Source of the DNA: Natronorubrum aibiense
GTDB lineage: Archaea > Halobacteriota > Halobacteria > Halobacteriales > Natrialbaceae
Direction of reading: 5' to 3'
Assembly (NCBI RefSeq): GCF_009392895.1
Contig: NZ_CP045489.1
Location: 186,001-250,000 of the forward strand
Length of the DNA stretch: 64,000 bases
Shown here in pieces: positions 1,589 through 55,817 of this stretch. Under the pieces are notes generated by a model, which ran no database searches, had not been told where the DNA came from, and saw only the letters and a list, made by a program, of their open reading frames with translations. A program made the translations under genes and the position numbers. The stretch's first letter is position 1; each line of letters opens with the position of its first letter.

Positions 1589-2333
1589 GGCACTGTCTAG
1601 TTCAGCACCTCGTCGGCTGGCGTTCGTCCGTCGTGCGATTGGTGCGGTCTCTGATAGTTGTAGTAATGCACGAACTGTTCAATCCACTCGCGTGCGCTCG
1701 CCCGACTGCCAACCCATGAGTTATGAAAACGGTCAACCCTCATTTTGAGGGTATGAAACCACTTTTCGATGAGGTTTCGGTCGGTGTAGTTCACTCGACC
1801 GTTCAATCCTAATCGAGCAAGGGCAGTCCGATAGCCGAATTGATCAACGAGAAACTCAGCGTCCGAGAGATCGTGTTTCTCACGAAGTCCATGCAGAAAT
1901 GCAGCCGCCGGATCGGTACCATGCCGACCGAACAACGCGACATCGAGGATCAGCTTTGACTCGATATCTATTGCGTCATACACCCAAGACCATTCTCCGT
2001 TGATCTTGACAGCGGTTTCGTCAACAGCGACCCGCTTCAGCTTCGCCTCAGGCGGGTCGCGTCCACTGTCAGACAGCTGATGTACCCAGTTCCAAACCGA
2101 TCCGTGATAGCGTTCAACGCCTAATTCATCGAGAATCGTTGTTGTCTCTCGAATCGAACAACCGGTCTGATGGAGGCGGACGGCGAACGCCCTAACGGGC
2201 GTCGCCGTCCGCTCGTTCTCCCAAGCTTCTTCTAAATCCGCGTCGTAGCTCTCGCTGAGCAGGTCTGCGAGCATTCTAACCAATTCACTCAACGACCTGC
2301 ACACTTCTCAAACTGGCTCAACTAGACACTGTC
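1589..2333 (-). mobile_element. IS6-family insertion sequence, apparently complete
   Basis: The element is 745 bp. The left end GGCACTGTCTAGTTCAGC and the inverted right end GACAGTGTCTAGTTGAGC match at 15 of 18 positions. The 8-bp flanks are ATCAGTTA (1581-1588) and ATCAGTTC (2334-2341), 7 of 8 identical, as expected for an IS6 target duplication that has since lost one match. It carries one transposase gene. Two related damaged copies occur at 29765-30506 and 59533-59939. Confidence 0.85.
1597..2304 (-). CDS. IS6-family DDE transposase
   Basis: The 235-residue protein begins MCRSLSELVRMLADLL; M11 is an alternative start closer to relatives. An N-terminal helix-turn-helix region (about 35-77) precedes the RNase H-like catalytic core. 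Candidate acidic residues are D95 in VAVDET, D154 in LVDQFGY and E180 in NLIEKWF. The C-terminus has the HYYNYQRPHQSHDGRTP motif shared by IS6/IS240-type enzymes. The stop lies 8 bp inside the left terminal repeat. It appears intact and could mobilise the damaged copies. Confidence 0.88.
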   Translation of the reverse strand: MCRSLSELVRMLADLLSESYDADLEEAWENERTATPVRAFAVRLHQTGCSIRETTTILDELGVERYHGSVWNWVHQLSDSGRDPPEAKLKRVAVDETAVKINGEWSWVYDAIDIESKLILDVALFGRHGTDPAAAFLHGLREKHDLSDAEFLVDQFGYRTALARLGLNGRVNYTDRNLIEKWFHTLKMRVDRFHNSWVGSRASAREWIEQFVHYYNYQRPHQSHDGRTPADEVLN

Positions 2334-29764: not shown

Positions 29765-30506
29765 GGCACTGTCTAGATGAGAGTTTGAGGAACGAGCAGG
29801 TGGTGGCAAGAAGTGTCCATGCAACTTGCCAACCTGCTCAGAGAGAGCTTAGACGTGGATTGTGATGAGGTTTGGGAGAACGAGCGCACCCCGACACCCA
29901 TTAGGGTGTTCGGGGTGCGCCTGCATTCGATGGGTTGTCGGTGCGGGAAGTCGTCGCTGTGCTGGACTTACTTGGTGTCGATCGGTCTCATGGAGCCGTC
30001 TGGAACTGGACGCACGATCTCGCGGAGAGCCAGGCGGACCCGCCGACGGCAGCGCCGTCGCGGGTCGCCGTCGATGAGAAACAGATCGAGGTCGATGGCG
30101 AAAAGAAATGGCTGTACGCGGCGATCGATACGGAGTCGAAGCTCTTGTTCGAAATCGACGTACACAGCCGCCGCGGGACCGATCCCGCGGCGGCATTTTT
30201 GCATCGGCTAACCGAGAAACACGACGTGTCAGACACTGAGTTTCTGGTTGATGGCGGTGGCTATCTGACTGCCCTCTTTCGACACGATCTGAGCGGTCAG
30301 CTCAACTATACAGACCGGAACCACATCGAAAAATGGTTCCAGACTGTGTCGATGCGAATCGACCGCTTTCACTCGTTTTGGCGGGGCAGTCCAGCCAGTG
30401 CACGTCGCTGGCTCAGACGGTTCAGACACCACTACAACCACGATAAGCCGAATCAAGCACTCGATGGCCGAACGCCAGCCCAGGAGGTGCTGAACTAGAC
30501 AGTGCC
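29765..30506 (+). mobile_element. IS6-family element, copy 2 (inactive)
   Basis: The ends are GGCACTGTCTAG (29765-29776) and, inverted, GAACTAGACAGTGCC (30492-30506). The 8-bp flanks GCAAGTTC and CCTTCGCC do not match, so no target duplication remains. The transposase carries a 1-nt deletion, and the element is about 74% related by motif to the copy at 1589 rather than identical. Confidence 0.8.
29813..30498 (+). pseudogene. IS6-family transposase with 1-nt frameshift
   Basis: The N-terminal frame MSMQLANLLRESLDVDCDEV to RVFGVRLHSMGC is followed after a 1-nt loss (TGTCGGTGCGG where TGTTCGGTGCGG is expected) by SVREVVAVLDLLGVDRSHGA to the normal C-terminus QALDGRTPAQEVLN. The catalytic motifs VAVDEK, FLVDGGGY and HIEKWF are present in the second frame, so only the frameshift blocks production of a full enzyme. 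Confidence 0.8.
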
Positions 30507-39544: not shown

Positions 39545-41125
39545 ATGGTAGACGATCAATCGAACCGCGACGGGCTGAAGCGGAGAGGCTACCTCAAAGG
39601 GGTCGTGGGAACTGGACTCGGCATCGGCATACTAAGCATGTCGACTGCCACCACGCACGCGAGCGATGACGAGAACGATACCGAGGACGACGCCGAGAAC
39701 AAGGGTAATACGCATAATGTTGATGGCGACAGCGTATACTTGGTCTTCGGTGCCGATACGTCCGAGGACGATCTCGACGCGTGGGTCGCCGAACACAAAG
39801 ACGAGATCACCGAGGGATCGAGAGACTCCATCACACAAGTTGTTCAATATCATGATGTCTCCCAGCTTAACGTCAATCAGCAGGCTACCGCCGTCAGTAT
39901 CGCTATTGATGACGGAGAGGCGACGGCAATTCAGCAGGCCAACCAGAATAACAACAATACCCAAAAGGGACACGCTGAGTCGATAAACATCTCAGAAACA
40001 GAGAACAGTGAGACGTTCAACGACGTCAGCAACGTGTACATTGTCTTCGCCGAGGAGACCGGATACCGAGAATTCAACGGCTGGGTCGTGAGGGACGAGA
40101 CCTACCAAAGCGAGCAGTCTGCCCAGGTGACGATTGAGCAGTCTCAGACGGTCAATCAGTTGAACTACAGCAGCCAGAGCGCTGCCGTCGCCATCGCTGA
40201 AGGTGGCAGCGACGCCGAGGCCTACCAGCAGAGTGCGCAGACGAACGAGAACTACCAGCACGCCGAGGCAGCCGCGGTGAATGTCAGTAGTAACGAGAAG
40301 GAGACAGGTGACGGTCAGGAGGCACTGGAATCGGTTGAACAGTGGCAGGAAGTGGCCCAACTCAACGTCAGTGAGCAGGGCGTCGCGATCGCGATCGCCG
40401 TCGGTAGTGGCAGCGTTGCGGAGGCGTGCCAAGTAAGTGCACAGTGTAATCTCAACGAGCAGGTCGCTGACGCGACCGCGATCAACTTTGAATGGACGTC
40501 CGCCGACGAAGTCGTCGCTAACGCGGACATGGTCGGCGAATTCTCAGACGAGGAGATGAACCGCACTGATGATGGTTCGTCTCAATCGAACACCCAGGAA
40601 GAATCCGCTAATATCACGCAGGTTCAGAGCGTCGGACAAGAGAACATCAGCTTACAGAACGCCGCGATCGCCGTCGGAACCGACGATAGCACCGCAACAG
40701 CTCGACAGGAGAGCTATCAGGCAAACTTGAATGCACAGGTCGCATCCGTGGAAGCGCTGAACGTCCAAGATTCTCACTGCAGCGCGACCGTAGTGGTGAG
40801 CGGAAAGGACACGAACGGCGACAAATCGTGGGCTATCGCCTACGAGAATGGCGACAATGAGACCGCACAGCAGATGGCTACCGCTGAAATCAACCAACTA
40901 CAGTTCATTGAACAACTGAACGTCAACGAACAAAACGGCGCGATTGCGTACGCCGCTAACAGCGACGATGCGGTGGCCGAGCAGCTAAATTACCAGTTGA
41001 ACAAGAACGTACAGGTAGCGGAAACAAGCGCTGTCAATGAAGGTGAAGGTGGAGGTAAGAAGGACAAGGGGAAAAAGAAAAAGAAGGTGAGAAAGTGCTC
41101 TATTGAAAATGCGGTACGGCGCTAA
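39545..41125 (+). CDS. Secreted Q/N-repeat protein, curli-like amyloid candidate
   Basis: The 526-residue protein starts with a twin-arginine-like signal LKRRGYLKGVVGTGLGIGIL. After an acidic linker come five about 53-residue repeats (about 96-148, 194-247, 263-314, 356-406, 446-498). Each follows Q-x-x-x-Q-L-N-x-x-x-Q-x-x-A-x-x-I-A, then A-x-A-x-Q-x-x-x-Q-x-N-x-N-x-Q-x-A-x-A. A VY(L/I)VF...W-V module (64-85 and 164-185) precedes repeats 1 and 2. The regular Q/N ladder resembles CsgA-type curli repeats; the C-terminus is Lys-rich. Function is inferred; no chaperone or secretion gene is nearby. Confidence 0.75.
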   Translation: MVDDQSNRDGLKRRGYLKGVVGTGLGIGILSMSTATTHASDDENDTEDDAENKGNTHNVDGDSVYLVFGADTSEDDLDAWVAEHKDEITEGSRDSITQVVQYHDVSQLNVNQQATAVSIAIDDGEATAIQQANQNNNNTQKGHAESINISETENSETFNDVSNVYIVFAEETGYREFNGWVVRDETYQSEQSAQVTIEQSQTVNQLNYSSQSAAVAIAEGGSDAEAYQQSAQTNENYQHAEAAAVNVSSNEKETGDGQEALESVEQWQEVAQLNVSEQGVAIAIAVGSGSVAEACQVSAQCNLNEQVADATAINFEWTSADEVVANADMVGEFSDEEMNRTDDGSSQSNTQEESANITQVQSVGQENISLQNAAIAVGTDDSTATARQESYQANLNAQVASVEALNVQDSHCSATVVVSGKDTNGDKSWAIAYENGDNETAQQMATAEINQLQFIEQLNVNEQNGAIAYAANSDDAVAEQLNYQLNKNVQVAETSAVNEGEGGGKKDKGKKKKKVRKCSIENAVRR

Positions 41126-41527: not shown

Positions 41528-42187
41528 TCAATGGTCATCATCGTGGCTGCCATCCCCGCCTTCACTACTTTCGTGTCCACCGTGCCCGCTGTCACCACCG
41601 CTTCGAACCATCTCATTCAGTTCGCGGATCTTCTCGTGAGTACCGTCGGGTAATTCAGACTGCGGCTCGGCCATTCCAGGCTGGTCGTCGAGCTGGGGAT
41701 CACCGACGACAACGCACCCGAGCATCCCTGTGTTTTCGTGTGGGCGACAGTAATAGTCATAGACTCCTTCAGTTTCGAATGTGTGTTCAAAGGTTGCCCC
41801 TTGGTCGTCGATTTCCCCGCTATCCCATGCCTTAGCGTCATCAGGAATCCTCTGGGGCTTGTCGTTCGCCGGTGCATAAGCGGTCGTCGTATGAGAACCG
41901 CTCTCGAGCGTCCACGTGATCGTCTCTCCAAGTTCGATTTCAGCGACATGGGGCTCGAAGTGAGTTCCAGAGTCATTCGTCACCATTGTCACTTCGGCTA
42001 CACTCTCAGACGTACTATCCGTTTCATTGCTCTCATTGTCGAGATCCTCGCTCGAGTTAGTAGCCCCCTCATCCGAGTTGGCATCGTTCTCTGATTGGTC
42101 GTCTTCGGTCAGACAACCGGCAAGTCCAGTTACAATTGCACCACTAGCTATCCCAAGTACGTGCCGCCGATATGGTTGATCGCTCAT
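41528..42187 (-). CDS. Halocyanin-like blue copper lipoprotein
   Basis: The 219-residue protein has a Tat lipoprotein signal (RRHVLGIASGAIVTGLAG, Cys25) and an acidic Ser/Asn/Glu linker. The type-1 copper domain keeps all ligands: H99 in ESGSHTT, C147 and H150 in YYCRPHENTGM, and M155. The C-terminal tail is Gly/His-rich (GGDSGHGGHESS). Halocyanins are membrane-anchored electron carriers. It opens the copper island; repeat copy 2 lies just upstream of it (42222). Confidence 0.85.
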   Translation of the reverse strand: MSDQPYRRHVLGIASGAIVTGLAGCLTEDDQSENDANSDEGATNSSEDLDNESNETDSTSESVAEVTMVTNDSGTHFEPHVAEIELGETITWTLESGSHTTTAYAPANDKPQRIPDDAKAWDSGEIDDQGATFEHTFETEGVYDYYCRPHENTGMLGCVVVGDPQLDDQPGMAEPQSELPDGTHEKIRELNEMVRSGGDSGHGGHESSEGGDGSHDDDH

Positions 42188-42221
42188 TGTGATTGCTAAA
42201 TTGGCGATTCGTCTCCTTTCC

Positions 42222-42579
42222 TTATCAAGCAGAGTAGGGCGCTAAAACCTCGCGCTTCAGCGCGGGGATACAGCGCCCGCACGTAGTTTTAAGAGGTTCT
42301 ACGGCGGACTGAATGCTATCCGAGGCGGTCTATCCGCCCTATCCCAATGAGACAGTATCGGGATTCGCCCTTTCGTCGTGGAAGGCACCCCTTCCATTAG
42401 ACGAACAGGGTGCAGGAAGCACAAGATAACTCCGAATCCCCGTCTTCTCAACGGTGGATAGGGGTAACGGTAGCGTGGCACTGCCAGCATTCCCTCGGGG
42501 ATGTGAAACCGTAAATCTCCCAACTCAGCAAGCTTCGGCTTGTGGGAAGCTCCGCCGTTTACGGCGGAGAGGATGTCAC
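42222..42579 (-). mobile_element. PATE-like element, copy 2
   Basis: Same 358-bp sequence as copies 1 and 3, in reverse orientation: TTATCAAGCAGAGTAGGGCG at 42222 and GGATGTCAC at 42571-42579. Its hairpin ends are intact. It differs from copy 3 at only a few positions (for example CGTCTTCTC versus CGTCTCCTC). It adjoins a SHOCT-type gene whose frameshifted reading frame ends inside the element. Confidence 0.75.
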
Positions 42580-42917
42580 TCGGCATATAATGTCAAACTC
42601 GTTGGTTTACTTCGACTGTTCGAGCCTGTCGTGGCGGGCTTCGAACTCTTCGTCAGTGAGATCGCCGCGAGCGTATGCCTGGCGATCTGGAGGAGCGTCG
42701 AGGGACGGTACCAGCTCCACCAGTCGAGGTACGCCACTCCGAACAGACTTCCAACGTAGACGATCCATGCTGTCCAGCCGAGCCAGAACGTCCAGTTGCG
42801 GGTGCCGTGGGTCCAGAACCGGACTGACTGGCTCCGGATACTCACGAGAAGTCCACCGAGCAGTATCCCTCCGGACAGGAGTCCAAGGCCAAACAGCGAT
42901 GTCTTGATGACGGGCAT
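42576..42917 (-). pseudogene. Membrane SHOCT-domain protein with frameshifted C-terminus
   Basis: The start MPVIKTSLFGLGLLSGGILL opens two spans; then the frame reads WYRPSTLLQIARHTLAAISL. In the +1 frame the same DNA reads DAPPDRQAYARGDLTDEEFE, ARHDRLEQSK with a TAA at 42609-42607, which is the SHOCT motif (Y-A-R-G-D-L-T-D-E-E-F-E-x-R). A 1-nt indel near 42700 therefore removes SHOCT, and translation runs on into repeat copy 2, stopping at 42576. Compare the intact SHOCT proteins at 57255 and 58124. Confidence 0.75.
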
Positions 42918-42932
42918 GGGTGAGATTGTGGG

Positions 42933-45260
42933 TTACGCAGGCAGGGAGAGATCTACATTCCCTAGTCTGCGGGCGTTAATCGCGACGATGATCGTCGACA
43001 GCGACATAAACACGGCGCCGATCGCCGGCGACAGGAGGATACCGATGGGTGCGAGAATCCCCGCCGCAAGCGGGAGCGCGAATACGTTGTAGCCGGTCGC
43101 CCAGACAAGATTTTCCTGCATCTTCCGGTAGCTCGCCTTCGACAGTCGGATGAGCCGCACCACATCCACCGGGTTGTTGTCGACGAGGATGATATCGCCC
43201 GATTCGATGGCGACGTCGGTCCCCGATCCGATGGCGATACCGACGTCAGCTCTCGTGAGCGCCGGCGCGTCGTTGACACCGTCGCCGACCATCGCGACGA
43301 ATTTCCCTTCCGACTGGAGCCGTTCGACCTTCGTGTCCTTCTCCTCGGGCAGCACCTCCGCGAAGTACTGGTCAATACCGAGTTCCTCGGACACAGCCCT
43401 CGCGACATCCTCGCTGTCGCCAGTGAGCATTGCCACTTCGATGCCCATCCCGTGCAGCGCCTCGATAGCCTGCCGGCTTTCTTCCCGAATGACGTCTGCC
43501 AGCGCGAACGCTGCGGCGATCTCGGATTCATCGTGGACCAGGTAGATGATCGTCTGTGCGTTCGAGCCGGCTTCCTCAGCGAAGGCAGCGATATCGTCAG
43601 GTCGTTCGATGCCGAGTTTCTCGATCAGGTTGGGGCCACCCAGATGAACCGTCTTGCCATCGACGGTGGCTCTGACACCGAGACCGCGAAGGTTCTCGAA
43701 GTTCGAGACGCTCGCTCGCTGCACCTCCCGTTCCTCAGCAGCATCCCGGATGGCGCGAGCGATCATATGTTCGGAGTCGCCCTCGACACCAGCGGCGATT
43801 TCGAACACGCGCTCTTCACTCCAGTCGCCTGCCGTCTCGACGTCGACGACGCCCTGTTCGCCCTTCGTGAGCGTGCCCGTCTTGTCGAACATCACCGTAT
43901 CGAGGTTACGAGATTCCTCCATGGCTATGCGGTCGCGGATGAGCATCCCGTTCTGGGCAGCGGTCGAGGTGTTGATTGCGACAACGAGCGGGACGGCCAG
44001 GCCAAGTGCGTGGGGACACGCGATGACGAGAACCGTGACCACGCGTTCGAGAACACCGATGTTGAACCCGACTGCGACGATCCACGCGACGGCCGTAATG
44101 CCCGCAACGGCGAGTGCGACGTAGAACAGCCACCCTGCTGCGCGGTCCGCCAGGAGCTGCGTGCGGGATTTGGACTGCCGGGCTTCATCAACGAGCCGCA
44201 TGATGCCTGCCAACGTCGTCTCCTCGCCCGTCTTAGTGATTCTGATGCGGAGGCTCCCGTCCTGGTTGACCGTCCCGGCGACCACTTCTGAGCCGGGTTC
44301 TTTGCCCACGGACCTGGACTCGCCGGTGATCATCGATTCGTCGACGGACGACTCGCCCTCGGCGACCTCGCCGTCGGCGGGAACCGAAGCACCGGGACGA
44401 ACGAGTACGACGTCGTCCTCAGAGAGTTCGTCGACTGGCACTTCCTCGGTATCCCCACTCTCGGTGACGCGCTCGGCGGTGTCGGGCATGAGCTTCGCCA
44501 GTTCGTCGAGCGCACCGGAGGCCTGTCGGACCGAGCGCATCTCCATCCAGTGGCCCAGCAGCATGATGTCGATCAGCGTGACCAGTTCCCAGAAGAACGG
44601 CGTCGTCCCTTCGAGAAACAGGCTCGCGATCGAGTAGACGAACGCAACGGTGATCGCCAGCGAGATCAGCATCATCATCCCTGGCTCACGGTTCTCGAGT
44701 TCCGTCCGGGCCATCGAGAGGAACGGCACGCCACCGTACGCGAAGATCACGACTGAGAGGACGGGTGTGATCCAGACGCTTCCAGGGAACGACGGCGCCG
44801 TGTAGCCGAAGACATCCTGAATGAACTCGCTGAAGAAGATGACCGGCACCGAGAGCACGAGCGACACCCAGAACCGCCGCCGGAACATCTGCTCGTGGCC
44901 CGTGTGGTCCGTGTGGGCGGCGTGATCTTCGTGCCTTCCCTCGTGGACGTCCGCGCCTTGGTCGTGTGCATCGTGATCGTGTTCGCCCTCTCCAGTATGG
45001 GCGTGGCTGTGTCCGGGCTCGGCTTCGGGATTGTGGTGTGCGTGTTCGTCGGTGCTTCCGGGTTCCGTGGTAGTCTCGCCCGTCCGGTCGTGGTTCGTGT
45101 GCTCGGAAGAGTGGGGAGGCTCCGTGGTAGATGAGGGATCTGTCGCTCGCCTCCTTCCATCTGCTTCTAACTGGCAAATACGGCAGCAGTAGACGGGTCT
45201 CTCGGAATTAGTTTCCGACGAAGCGTCCCGTGTACGCTCGTGGTCTATGTGGTTGCTCAT
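42933..45260 (-). CDS. copB: Copper-translocating P1B-type ATPase, CopB-like
   Basis: The 775-residue protein has a long His/Asp/Glu-rich N-terminus with YCCRICQLE and many H-x-H motifs instead of an HMA domain. P-type motifs follow: TGES (actuator), CPH in [12 protein letters not shown] (the CopB-type ion-site signature), [11 protein letters not shown] (phosphorylated Asp) and [20 protein letters not shown]. The membrane topology has eight spans. CPH-type ATPases export Cu2+/Cu+ or Ag+. It lies upstream of the broken SHOCT gene on the same strand. Confidence 0.9.
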
Positions 45261-45384
45261 GGGTTGGGTGTTGGTGCCATTCCCCCATTATTCTGTCCGG
45301 GACCTGATACTGCGCGGGACGATCAGGGCAGGCGGACTCGGAAGAGAACGACGAGGTGGTTGTCCGCGAACGTTCTGGGTGCTC

Positions 45385-45582
45385 TCAGGCGTGGGCTGTG
45401 TATCCAGCGTCTTCGACGGCTTGCACGAGGGCCGTGACGTCGGCGTCACCATCGACACTCGCCTGTTCGGCCTCACGATCGGCGGTGGCGTCAGTCACAC
45501 TAGACACGCCTTGAAGTGCCTCTTCGACTGTCTGTTCACAATGGCCGCAGGTCATTCCCGCGACGGTGATCGTTTGACTCAT
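45385..45582 (-). CDS. copZ: CopZ-like heavy-metal-associated chaperone
   Basis: The 65-residue protein starts MSQTITVAGMTCGHCEQTVE and is a complete HMA domain with the G-M-T-C-x-x-C metal site. The rest (EALQGVSSVTDATADREAEQ, VTALVQAVEDAGYTAHA) keeps the beta-alpha-beta fold. CopZ-type proteins deliver Cu+ to P1B ATPases. It is divergent from the Lrp/TRASH regulator at 45716 across a 133-bp spacer and lies upstream of copB on the same strand. Confidence 0.9.
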   Translation of the reverse strand: MSQTITVAGMTCGHCEQTVEEALQGVSSVTDATADREAEQASVDGDADVTALVQAVEDAGYTAHA

Positions 45583-45715
45583 TCCAGTGAGAGATACGGA
45601 CGGCTCCTCTTTGTCGTTTGCTGCTTCGATACTGCTGTTCGAACGGCCGTAAAACGACGCATTCCAAAGTATCTGCTGGGGAATCGTATTGTATCCTGGA
45701 TCCCTATCGCCTAGT

Positions 45716-46306
45716 ATGCGGGACTTGGACGAAACCGACATGGAGATTCTCTCACAGTTAGCCGAGAACGCCCGTCGCCCGTTCAGCGCGATCGGCGAGG
45801 AAGTTGGCCTCTCGGGGCCAGCGGTTTCAGATCGCGTCACACGGCTCCAAGAGACCGGGGTCATCAACCACTTCACTATCGATGTCGACCGTACCAAACT
45901 CAGAGCTGGTGTGCCGGTACTTGTCCAGCTAGATAACCCATCTGAGTCATTCGACGCGGTTCGTGAGCGGGTCAGGAATGATGACGCCGTCGAACACATG
46001 TTCATTACGTCCGAGGGAGACCTCTGGTTCTACGGACGTGCAGAAGCACAGAACGTCCGGGTGTGGGTGAACACACTTCTGGATGGCGCTGACTCGGTTG
46101 ATTACACAGTCACGTTAGTCGACGAAGTCGAGTGGACGCCATCGATCGACGGCGTCGAGTTCGCACTCACGTGTGCCGAGTGCAGTAATACTGTGGATTC
46201 TGAGGGGGAGACGAGTCGTATTGGCGGAGAACTCTATCATTTCTGTTGTCCATCGTGTCAGAGTCGATTCAAAGATCGACACCAACGTCTCGAAGAGGGC
46301 GTGTAG
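45716..46306 (+). CDS. Lrp/AsnC-type regulator with C-terminal TRASH metal domain
   Basis: The start MRDLDETDMEILSQLAENAR is chosen because it begins the HTH; the upstream start at 45689 adds nine residues. The wHTH (RRPFSAIGEEVGLSGPAVSD, RVTRLQETGVINHFTID) is followed by an Lrp-like ligand domain and a TRASH zinc/copper-binding tail C-A-E-C...C-C-P-S-C-Q-S-R-F. TRASH-Lrp proteins are archaeal copper regulators (CopT/CopR-like). It sits between copZ (divergent) and the CopA-type ATPase, which it probably controls. Confidence 0.85.
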   Translation: MRDLDETDMEILSQLAENARRPFSAIGEEVGLSGPAVSDRVTRLQETGVINHFTIDVDRTKLRAGVPVLVQLDNPSESFDAVRERVRNDDAVEHMFITSEGDLWFYGRAEAQNVRVWVNTLLDGADSVDYTVTLVDEVEWTPSIDGVEFALTCAECSNTVDSEGETSRIGGELYHFCCPSCQSRFKDRHQRLEEGV

Positions 46307-46396
46307 CGCTGACGTTGGTTTGGAACCGAAAGTAAACGCCGTTGATTACCCTCACTATCCAAGTAGAAACTCACCTAACGGAGTAGCCCCTATAGT

Positions 46397-49009
46397 ATGA
46401 TAATGGAAACACGCACAGCACATCTCGACATCACAGGGATGACCTGTGCCAACTGCTCGGGGACAGTTAGCGACGCCCTGGAGTCACTCGACGGCGTCAT
46501 CGAGGCGAACGCCAATTTCGCCACGGATGAGGGCTCCGTCGAGTACAACCCTGACGAGGTATCGCTTGCAGAGATTTACGAGACGATCGAGGACGCCGGC
46601 TACGGTGCGGTGTCTGACACGGTGACCATAGGCATCTCCGACATGACCTGTGCCAACTGTGTACAGACGAACGAGACCGCGCTCGAGAACACGCCGGGTG
46701 TTATCGCGGCCGAGGCAAACTTCGCCACCGACGAAGCGCAGGTCAGGTACAACCCTGCGGACACGTCCCTCGACGCGCTCTACGACGCTATCGAGGACGC
46801 TGGTTACTCGCCGGTCCGTGAAGACAGCGACAGCGGTGAATCGGGTGAAGATGCTCGGGACGCTGCACGACAGGGAGAGATTCGAAAACAGCTTCGACTG
46901 ACGCTGTTCGGAGCCGCGCTGTCGGCCCCGATGCTGTTTTTCCTCGCAGAGAAGTTTCTGCTCGGCGGGGGAATTCTCCCGGAGACGGTCTTCGGCGTCG
47001 AATTTGGGTGGGTTGAGTTCCTGCTGGCGACACCCGTTCAGGCCGTGCTTGGCTGGCCGTTCTACAAGAACTCCTACAACGCGCTGGTCAACAACAGGCG
47101 CGCCAACATGGACGTTCTCATCGCACTGGGTTCGTCCACTGCGTATTTTTACTCCGTTGCAGTACTTGCCGGACTGATCGCGGGAAGCTTGTACTTCGAC
47201 ACTGCCGCGCTCATCCTGGTGTTCATCACCCTTGGGAACTACCTCGAAGCCCGCTCGAAAGGGCAGGCAGGCGACGCCCTTCGGAAGCTCCTCGAAATGG
47301 AGGCCGAGACGGCCACCGTTGTCGACGAGGACGGTACCGAAGTGGAAGTGCCACTCGAAGATGTCACAGTCGGCGACCGCATGAAGGTCCGTCCAGGCGA
47401 GCAGATCCCGACCGACGGCGTCGTCATCGACGGCCAGAGCGCCGTTGACGAGTCGATGGTCACCGGCGAGTCGGTCCCCGTCGAAAAAGGCGAGGGCGAC
47501 GAGGTTGTTGGCTCAACGATCAACGAGAACGGTGTGCTCGTCGTCGAGGCGACGAAGGTCGGAAAGGACACCGCCCTCCAGCAGATCGTTCAGACAGTCA
47601 AGGAGGCCCAGTCCCGCCAGCCAGACATCCAGAACCTCGCCGACCGCATCTCGGCGTACTTCGTCCCAGCAGTCATCGCGAACGCGTTGCTGTGGGGCAC
47701 TGTGTGGTTCCTCTTCCCCGAAGCACTCGCCGGATTCGTCGACTGGCTCCCGCTCTGGGGAGCGGTCGCTGGCGGACCAGCCGTGGCTGGTGGCACTGTC
47801 TCAGTCTTCGAGTTCGCGCTCATCGTCTTCGCGTCGTCCGTGTTGATCGCCTGTCCCTGTGCGCTGGGGTTAGCGACGCCTGCTGCAACGATGGTTGGGA
47901 CGACGATCGGTGCCCAGAACGGCGTCCTGTTCAAGGGCGGTGACATCCTCGAACGGGCGAAAGACGTCGACACGGTCGTCTTCGACAAGACGGGTACGCT
48001 GACGAAAGGCGAGATGGAACTGACCGACGTCGTCGTCTTCGATGGCGACAGACAGTCTATCACAGACGGCGGCGACACCGCTGCCGATGGCGGCCAACTA
48101 ACCGCACGTGACCGCCTCAACGAAAACGACGTGTTGCGGCTCGCGGCCACGGCCGAGAGCGGGAGCGAACACCCGCTCGCCCGGGCCATCGTCGACGGAG
48201 CCAGAGACCGCGGCATCGACGTGAGCGACCCCGACAACTTCGAGAATGTCCCTGGCCACGGTATCAAAGCGACCGTCGGCGAGAATGAGGTGCTGGTCGG
48301 AAACCGAAAGCTCCTCCGCGACAACGGGATCGACCCCTCGCCCGCTCAGGAGACGATGGAGCGCCTCGAGAACGAGGGGAAGACGGCGATGCTCGTCGCC
48401 TACGAGGGCGAACTCGTCGGTGTGGTCGCTGACGCCGACACGATCAAGGAAACTGCGACCGAGGCCGTGAGCCAACTGCAGGAGCGCGGCGTCGACGTGA
48501 TGATGATCACCGGCGACAACGAGCGGACTGCTCGTGCCGTCGCCGAGCAGGTTGGGATCGACCCCGAGAATGTCCGCGCGGAGGTTCTTCCCGAGGACAA
48601 ATCCGATGCCATCGAGGCCATTCAGGACGAAGGTCGCAAGGCGATGATGGTGGGCGACGGCGTCAACGACGCGCCCGCGCTCGCAGTCGCCCACGTCGGG
48701 ACCGCCATCGGGAGCGGGACGGACGTCGCCATCGAAGCGGCGGACGTGACGCTGATGCGCGACGATCCACTAGACGTGGTGAAGGCCATTCGAATCTCGG
48801 ACGCGACACTCCAGAAGATCAAGCAGAACCTCGTGTGGGCGCTTGGTTACAACACGGCGATGATCCCGTTGGCTTCACTCGGGCTGCTCCAGCCCGTCCT
48901 CGCAGCCGGCGCGATGGCCTTCTCGAGTGTGTCGGTGCTGTCGAACAGTCTACTGTTCCGTCGGTACACTCCAGATCACGATTACGAGCTCCTCGGCCGC
49001 CTTCGCTGA
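46397..49009 (+). CDS. copA: Cu+-exporting P1B-type ATPase, CopA-like, two HMA domains
   Basis: The 870-residue protein (start [17 protein letters not shown], or M3) has two N-terminal HMA domains ([11 protein letters not shown] and [11 protein letters not shown]), then CPCALG in [29 protein letters not shown], the [20 protein letters not shown] hinge and [14 protein letters not shown]. The CPC motif marks a P1B-1 Cu+/Ag+ exporter. A short AT-rich promoter (CCTATAGTATGATAATGG) overlaps the start, consistent with leaderless transcription. It follows the TRASH-Lrp regulator by 90 bp. Confidence 0.93.
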
Positions 49010-54413: not shown

Positions 54414-55817
54414 ATGCAAGCCGCCCTCATCGACGGAATTCTCGAGTCGCTACGGATCGGCGTCGGGTTCCTCTGGATGGCGACTTGGGCGATCATCATG
54501 GGGCTCGTCATCACGAGCCTCGTCCAAGTCTACGTCTCGAAAGAGCGAATGGCCAACGTACTCGGAGAGGGTGACCTGAGCGGTCTCGCGAAGGCGACGG
54601 TGTTCGGCGCCGCGAGTAGTGGCTGTAGCTTCGGCGCCGTCGCCATCAGTAAGGGCCTGTTCAAGAAGGGCGCGCACGCGGTGAACTTCCTTGCGTTCAT
54701 GTTCGCCTCGACGAACCTCATCGTCGAACTCGGCCTGATGATCCTCATCCTCCTTGGCTGGGAGTTCCTTCTCGCGGAACTCCTCGGCGGCGTCATCCTC
54801 ATCTCCGTGATGGCGCTCCTCGTCCATCTGACGCTCCCCGAGAACCTGTTCGAGCAAGTCCGGCAGGAACTGAATCAACGCGACCACGAGCAGGGAACCA
54901 CCGAGGACCCGACCTGCGGAATGGAAGGCAAAGACGAGTACTCGCTGGTGACTGACGGGGGCGAGACGCTGAAGTTCTGTTCGGAGGGTTGCATGGAGAC
55001 TTACCAGCAGGAGGCCGCAAGTAGCGGCGGGTGGCGCGACGAACTCCTCTCGTGGGGTGGGTGGTACAAAGTCGGGAACCAGTACCGCAAGGAGTGGTCA
55101 ATGATCTGGACGGACGTCATCGCAGGCTTTCTCATTTCGGGGTTCGTCATCGTCTTCGTCCCCCAGCGGGTGTGGAACACCCTGTTCCTCCAGGGCGACG
55201 GACTACTCGTCAGCGCCGAGAACGCCATCATGGGTGTGGCGATCGCCGTCATCAGCTTCGTCGGGAGCATCGGCAACGTCCCGTTCGCCGTCGCATTGTG
55301 GGGAGGCGGTGTCAGCTTCGCCGGTGTCATCGCGTTCGTCTACGCCGATCTCATCACGATTCCAGTCCTGAACGTCTACCGGAAGTACTACGGCTGGAAA
55401 GTGATGCTGTACATCCTCGGCGTCTTCTTCGTCACGATGGCCTTCACCGGCTTCCTCATGGAGCAACTGTTCGCGGCGCTCGACATAATCCCGAACCTCG
55501 CTGGCGGGCAGACGGCGTCCGAACAGACGTACTTCGAGCTCAACTACACCTTCTACCTCAACATCATCGCGTTCGCGCTCTCCGGATTCCTCCTGTACGT
55601 CTACCGACGCGGCCTCGGTGCACCTGGACAGTACCGCGACCCCGTCTGTGGGATGCGAACCGACGATAGCGGGCCAAGTCTCACCCACGACGGCGAGACG
55701 TACTACTTCTGTTCGGATCAATGCAAGCGATCGTTCGAGAAGCGCCCCTCCGAATTTGCACAGCAACACCCACAGGTCTCAGAGACGGGTTCTTCCCAGA
55801 GCCATGAACATCACTGA
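54414..55817 (+). CDS. Permease (DUF318/ArsP type) with two TRASH/YHS metal modules
   Basis: The 467-residue protein has an N-terminal permease half (GILESLRIGVGFLWMATWAI to EQVRQELNQ), a TRASH/YHS module DPTCGMEGKDEYSLVTDGGE to FCSEGCMETYQQ, a second permease half (SMIWTDVIAGFLISGFVIVF to GFLLYVYRRG) and a second TRASH/YHS module DPVCGMRTDDSGPSLTHDGE to FCSDQCKRSFEKRP. The split permease matches DUF318 (PF03773) proteins, which move arsenite or other metal species. The C-terminus ends in S-H-E-H-H. Confidence 0.8.
   Translation: MQAALIDGILESLRIGVGFLWMATWAIIMGLVITSLVQVYVSKERMANVLGEGDLSGLAKATVFGAASSGCSFGAVAISKGLFKKGAHAVNFLAFMFASTNLIVELGLMILILLGWEFLLAELLGGVILISVMALLVHLTLPENLFEQVRQELNQRDHEQGTTEDPTCGMEGKDEYSLVTDGGETLKFCSEGCMETYQQEAASSGGWRDELLSWGGWYKVGNQYRKEWSMIWTDVIAGFLISGFVIVFVPQRVWNTLFLQGDGLLVSAENAIMGVAIAVISFVGSIGNVPFAVALWGGGVSFAGVIAFVYADLITIPVLNVYRKYYGWKVMLYILGVFFVTMAFTGFLMEQLFAALDIIPNLAGGQTASEQTYFELNYTFYLNIIAFALSGFLLYVYRRGLGAPGQYRDPVCGMRTDDSGPSLTHDGETYYFCSDQCKRSFEKRPSEFAQQHPQVSETGSSQSHEHH

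Follow-up and report, generated by a model that had tools for sequence, protein, structure and literature searches.

A haloarchaeal family of secreted proteins with five Q/N-ladder repeats: candidate functional-amyloid-like structural subunits

The gene described here lies in a 64-kb stretch of DNA from Natronorubrum aibiense (the window, that is, the whole stretch analysed), on a 431 kb contig that is a secondary replicon; its features are collected in Table 1. The open reading frame is an intact gene under purifying selection: the orthologues of its product are 57–83% identical, and dN/dS against four of them is 0.13–0.21 overall and 0.09–0.15 in the repeats. A preliminary description, made from the sequence alone, had noted a Tat-like signal and a Lys-rich C-terminus, and both are present; from the signal motif we judge the protein to be secreted, with a probable cleavage site after THA. 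Its mature part is acidic and its C-terminal end Lys-rich. Two IS240-type transposase genes also lie in the window (1597–2304 and 29935–30498), consistent with a mobile replicon, and a metal-handling cluster adjoins the gene (a plastocyanin-like copper protein, two P-type metal ATPases and an ArsP-type permease with a YHS domain; 41528–49009 and 54414–55817).

Table 1. Features of the window gene (positions in the window).
Feature	Position	Strand	Basis
Long Q/N-ladder gene, type II secreted protein, complete, 526 aa	39545..41125	+	ORF; orthologues; dN/dS
Tat-type signal, twin-arginine motif KRRGYLK (residues 12–18)	39545..39664	+	sequence motif
First VYxVF...WV module, residues 61–92, predicted strand + helix	39725..39820	+	F68, G69, A70 invariant (43 relatives); model E64–68, H74–88
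Repeat unit R1, residues 96–148	39830..39988	+	repeat HMM; column conservation
Second VYxVF...WV module, residues 158–186	40016..40102	+	F158, G179 invariant, W180 nearly so (43 relatives)
Repeat unit R2, residues 193–247	40121..40285	+	repeat HMM; model strands 193–219, 223–247, pLDDT ~90
Repeat unit R3, residues 262–314	40328..40486	+	repeat HMM; model strands 260–286, 291–315
Repeat unit R4, residues 353–407	40601..40765	+	repeat HMM; model strands 352–378, 383–407
Repeat unit R5, residues 445–498	40877..41038	+	repeat HMM; model strands 444–470, 475–498
Lys-rich C-terminal tail, residues 501–526, type II trait, predicted disordered	41045..41122	+	pLDDT <50; type counts

The repeats first read by eye were recovered by a repeat HMM trained on proteins outside the clade of the window protein; this HMM finds exactly five units (i-E 3e-18 to 2e-21 each, 258 bits in total), with boundaries slightly shifted from those drawn before. 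Chance or composition as the source of the repeats is excluded by the scores of 2000 shuffled controls (1000 composition shuffles and 1000 that preserve the odd/even alternation), which reach ≤2.1 bits. The five units share 30–54% pairwise identity. The ladder of Gln and Asn residues proposed for them extends to the family: over 215 units, the ten Q/N columns (8, 10, 14, 16, 20, 38, 42, 44, 46 and 48) are conserved at 95–100%. The ladder residues occupy every second position; on their own face they are interspersed with Ala or other small residues, and the opposite face is variable; the conserved face changes parity near columns 21–23. Among 95 distinct family proteins, the unit is 55–57 residues long and the linkers are 6–79 residues; 93 proteins have exactly five units, and the other two have five plus a partial extra match. 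The doubled VYxVF...WV module of the preliminary description is also conserved in the 43 relatives (Table 1).

No Pfam family covers the long protein (the window protein and 43 relatives), Pfam, NCBIfam and PDB sequence searches with the window protein identified no relative, and our literature searches found no account of the long family; we regard it as haloarchaeal and hitherto undescribed. A match to the PhoQ sensor in the sequence searches is a short Q/N-rich stretch and was taken as chance. Members are present in 99 of 125 genomes of the Natrialbaceae, the taxonomic family of the source genome, in 84 of 391 genomes of a class-wide sample (all but five of the 84 being Natrialbaceae) and in 15 of 393 genomes of a phylum-wide sample (Natrialbaceae only); the carriers include Natrinema, Natronococcus, Natronorubrum, Haloterrigena, Natrialba, Haladaptatus, Halegenticoccus and Halomicrococcus.

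A tree splits the family into type I (68 rows, Natrialbaceae) and type II (27 rows, that is, the window protein and proteins of Haladaptatus, Halegenticoccus and Halomicrococcus). By motif, type I proteins have Sec-type signals; a Tat motif is found by pattern in 23 of the 27 type II proteins and in none of the 68 of type I, and the Lys-rich tail is likewise a type II trait (19/27 and 0/68). Several Haladaptatus copies are plasmid-borne, and the Natrialbaceae type II proteins nest within a Haladaptatus grade; this nesting suggests transfer, a reading that is tentative because the tree is rooted at its midpoint. The source genome has a second long gene on its chromosome (C1:3199910–3201418, 637 aa), a paralogue with 38% identity, a Sec-type signal and a PGF-CTERM-like end. 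Such ends were recognized by pattern in six type I proteins and one of type II, this paralogue among them, and the Pfam PGF-CTERM family (PF18204) matches 2 of the 43 relatives; the motif is absent from the C-terminus of the window protein.

Of 55 distinct type I loci, 48 have a short secreted gene with a single unit divergently upstream of the long gene (median spacing 624 bp), and no locus shows the pair arranged otherwise; two of the seven loci without this partner are near contig ends. The encoded protein (~100–330 aa) has one ladder unit and a signal like MKRTLTITLTVALIGSLMFMGFAGTAAA. No neighbour gene is conserved at type II loci, and the 64-kb window contains no second repeat protein, so the earlier statement that no nucleator is nearby stands for the window but not for the type I copies. 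The source genome has a short gene beside its type I copy and another on the replicon of the window, ~81 kb from the window gene (L158:9201–9635; on contig C2 near position 144.2 kb). The co-occurrence of long and short genes at the genome level is suggestive, but it does not prove partnership because the short-gene profile also matches the repeats of the long gene.

Several observations concern the short genes and their loci. Proteins of the short family keep their signal peptide, MKRxLTxxLTVALIGSLMFMGFAGTAAA, to an unusual degree from genus to genus (e.g., L018:3740–3823), beyond the need of export alone. On the chromosome of Haladaptatus salinisoli, five short single-repeat secreted ORFs lie in tandem with no adjoining long gene (L144:5040–6996); this is possibly a multi-subunit array. 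In Natronorubrum bangense, the chromosome and a plasmid each carry this long/short locus, and the features of the two copies are identical (L103, L104); either the locus was duplicated recently or the assembly is the cause.

The preliminary description had likened the repeats to those of the curli subunit CsgA, and a curlin-repeat profile search did not bear this out. The Pfam curlin family (PF07012) has no match in the window protein (E 10) or its 43 relatives (E 0.1), and a curlin profile search of the source genome also gave no match. In hhalign comparisons, the ladder unit scores 9.6 against the E. coli K-12 CsgA/B repeats, within the noise of shuffled profiles (mean ~7–8, maximum 12.8), and 10.8 against six FapB/C repeats (sequences from PMC11787515; column-shuffled mean 8–9, maximum 16); the Fap repeat motif type, GN-G-N-aaG-gNqQN, was not detected in the ladder unit by hhalign. 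No CsgA or FapC was among the matches in the PDB sequence searches, and no csg- or fap-type neighbours lie by the window gene. The absence of a CsgG-type secretion gene, first noted for the neighbourhood, extends to the whole source genome (PF03783, E 1) and is expected for a cell without an outer membrane. At the sensitivity used, these comparisons detect neither curlin nor Fap repeats and thus give no support to curli membership. Q/N-rich imperfect repeats, a long/short gene pair, CsgA and FapC as the top structure matches (vide infra) and the single archaeal protein with curli-like repeats in a 2012 curli survey (identity not given; PMC3521004) could be taken to indicate a true distant curli (CsgA) or Fap (FapC) family member that haloarchaea acquired; given the negative Pfam result, profile scores equal to those of column-shuffled controls and the missing sequence matches, CsgG and operon neighbours, we consider such an origin very improbable. 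The archaeal protein of the survey could be related to the Q/N-ladder family. Another Natrialbaceae genome has an open frame of 1537 residues, outside this family, that matches the curlin repeat weakly (E 0.1; L052, G053 C1:1361761).

The AF2 model of the window protein (43 sequences) has a mean pLDDT of 60, with the repeats at 85–92 (85–93 when the R2–R3 model is included), disordered linkers and a pTM of 0.5; in this model DSSP assigns two strands of up to 27 residues to each unit, with a short turn between them. In a model of R2–R3 (93 sequences; pLDDT 76), the first strand is interrupted at the parity shift of the conserved face. The structure prediction thus has very long strands, but the beta-solenoid expected earlier is not proven because there is no confident global fold. 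We compared the models with 350,542 PDB chains using Foldseek. The top three matches are FapC 9nqd (E 0.075), CsgA 8c50 (0.14) and FapC 9u4u (4.3) for the whole model and FapC 9u4u (E 0.0064), FapC 9nqd (0.023) and CsgA 8enq (0.9) for R2–R3, all non-significant; the remaining R2–R3 matches are mostly beta-solenoids (e.g., bactofilin, SufBD and ice-binding proteins). The best match (E 0.0064) has a probability of 0.09, a TM-score of 0.13 and an rmsd of 23, and all TM-scores are ≤0.2. Composition may contribute, as 3Di+AA scoring could bias Foldseek toward Q/N-rich targets; we read the ranking as a hint, short of proof, that the local geometry resembles that of amyloids or solenoids. A viral structure library gave no significant match.

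The two strands and short turn per unit would also allow long antiparallel beta-hairpins (strands of ~25 residues) that assemble as, for example, an envelope barrel or sheet with no cross-beta stack. We judge this arrangement improbable: the Foldseek matches are parallel beta-solenoids and amyloids, not barrels; the parity shift at columns 21–23 and the broken first strand in the R2–R3 model suggest a bend; and the identity of the ladder repeat by repeat fits in-register stacking.

The best explanation, which we hold with confidence about evenly divided, is a functional-amyloid-like protein with an architecture nearer to that of FapC than to that of CsgA; the earlier proposal of an independent, amyloid-like archaeal protein is retained in this form, with weak Foldseek pointers in its favour and no detectable curlin kinship. 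Specifically, we propose, judging it neither probable nor improbable, that the protein serves outside the cell as a structural subunit and would stack into fibres like those of curli or Fap, or into a surface mat. The gene, signal motif, repeats, conservation, paralogy and partner synteny are read from sequence, and the long beta strands are predicted; the stacking, the fibres, the matrix function and the roles of partner and tail are what we infer. The window protein would be exported by Tat to the cell exterior, where each monomer would form five homologous cross-beta layers, one per two-strand unit of ~56 residues, with flexible linkers between them. The layers would stack in register within and between molecules, the invariant Gln and Asn residues forming amide ladders along the stack that may provide strength in high salt, and monomers would join end to end into a fibre or surface mat of the haloarchaeal matrix. 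In type I, the commoner system, the short one-layer protein may initiate the fibre, cap it or assemble with it, and the PGF-CTERM end of some long copies would hold them to the cell. We take the window copy as a second paralogue that is mobile; its Lys-rich tail may instead bind to the acidic cell surface, to DNA or to polysaccharide.

Five fixed-length units in 95 of 95 proteins, a conserved one-face ladder, partner synteny, purifying selection and the PGF-CTERM end of some members argue for the stacking model at the level of sequence, as do, among the predictions, the long AF2 strands with disordered linkers and the top Foldseek ranks of FapC and CsgA. Against it count the non-significance of these matches, the pTM of 0.5, the DSSP assignment that also allows hairpins and the lack of detected sequence homology to CsgA, FapC and FapB.

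Tat usually exports folded proteins, whereas CsgA and FapC are exported unfolded; a folded monomer that never polymerizes is therefore possible. The chief rival of the fibre model is a non-polymerizing surface solenoid, that is, a beta-solenoid that acts as an adhesin or scaffold, either soluble or anchored to the surface, is stable as a monomer, is capped by the VYxVF modules and binds S-layer glycan, DNA or other cells. The Tat export of type II (which suggests folding before export), the PGF-CTERM anchors on some copies, the conserved non-repeat modules that could cap a stack and the beta-solenoid matches (bactofilin, SufBD and ice-binding proteins) are consistent with this alternative. However, no binding or catalytic site is apparent, conservation peaks in the repeated ladder, and the existence of a further gene family whose members have one unit each points to stacking between molecules; on this evidence we find the adhesin somewhat unlikely.

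If the fibre model is true, a design with fixed repeats, a Q/N ladder and long and short subunits arose separately from curli and Fap, in high salt and with a single membrane to cross. The long and short type I genes are likely a two-protein system, and the family provides conserved candidate matrix genes in culturable archaea of another haloarchaeal lineage than Haloferax. More tentatively, and with some doubt, we suggest an archaeal-only class of functional amyloids, with a five-layer Q/N subunit for saturated salt, a divergent one-layer nucleator or cap, and Sec/PGF-CTERM or Tat/Lys-tail routes, that would be the protein matrix of most Natrialbaceae.

Known systems place the family as follows. 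The biofilm matrix of Haloferax volcanii binds Congo red and ThT and contains a putative amyloid whose gene was not identified (PMC4180959); like our proposal, it concerns a haloarchaeal matrix. The Q/N-ladder family is seen in Natrialbaceae, Haladaptataceae and Halegenticoccus but was not found in most of the remaining haloarchaeal genomes of the sample, and therefore leaves the Haloferax staining unexplained. The sheath amyloid of Methanospirillum and Methanosaeta (MspA/SH) is, like the proposed subunit, a structural protein of archaea that is secreted, amyloid-like and built of imperfect repeats (PMC6242892, PMC10593813); compared by description, MspA differs in its repeats of ~80 aa, two per protein, and in its tubular sheath. 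Curli CsgA/CsgB share with the family secreted Q/N-ladder repeats (five in E. coli CsgA), two genes with one repeat family and a weak Foldseek match; the family differs in its unit (~56 vs ~22 residues), its linkers of 6–79 residues between units, the absence of the QxGxxN motif, the negative PF07012 search and the absence of CsgG.

FapC has three fixed-length repeats, each forming one cross-beta layer (core segments of ~50 residues), with variable linkers that join the layers and conserved Asn/Gln residues that hold them; its partner, FapB, shares the repeats (PMC12392863). The Q/N-ladder family differs from FapC/FapB in that sequence homology is undetected, there are five units, the one-unit partner is divergent, no fap-type operon is nearby, export is by Tat or Sec over a single membrane, and the family is archaeal only. 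Both have imperfect repeats of fixed length and fixed number (three in FapC, five in the haloarchaeal proteins), conserved Asn/Gln residues, variable disordered linkers (predicted as such in the haloarchaeal proteins) and a repeat-sharing partner; the proposed haloarchaeal layer would be of similar size to the FapC core layer of ~50 residues, and FapC is the top, non-significant, Foldseek match. With fixed-length units joined by variable linkers, the architecture of the family is closer to that of FapC than to that of CsgA.
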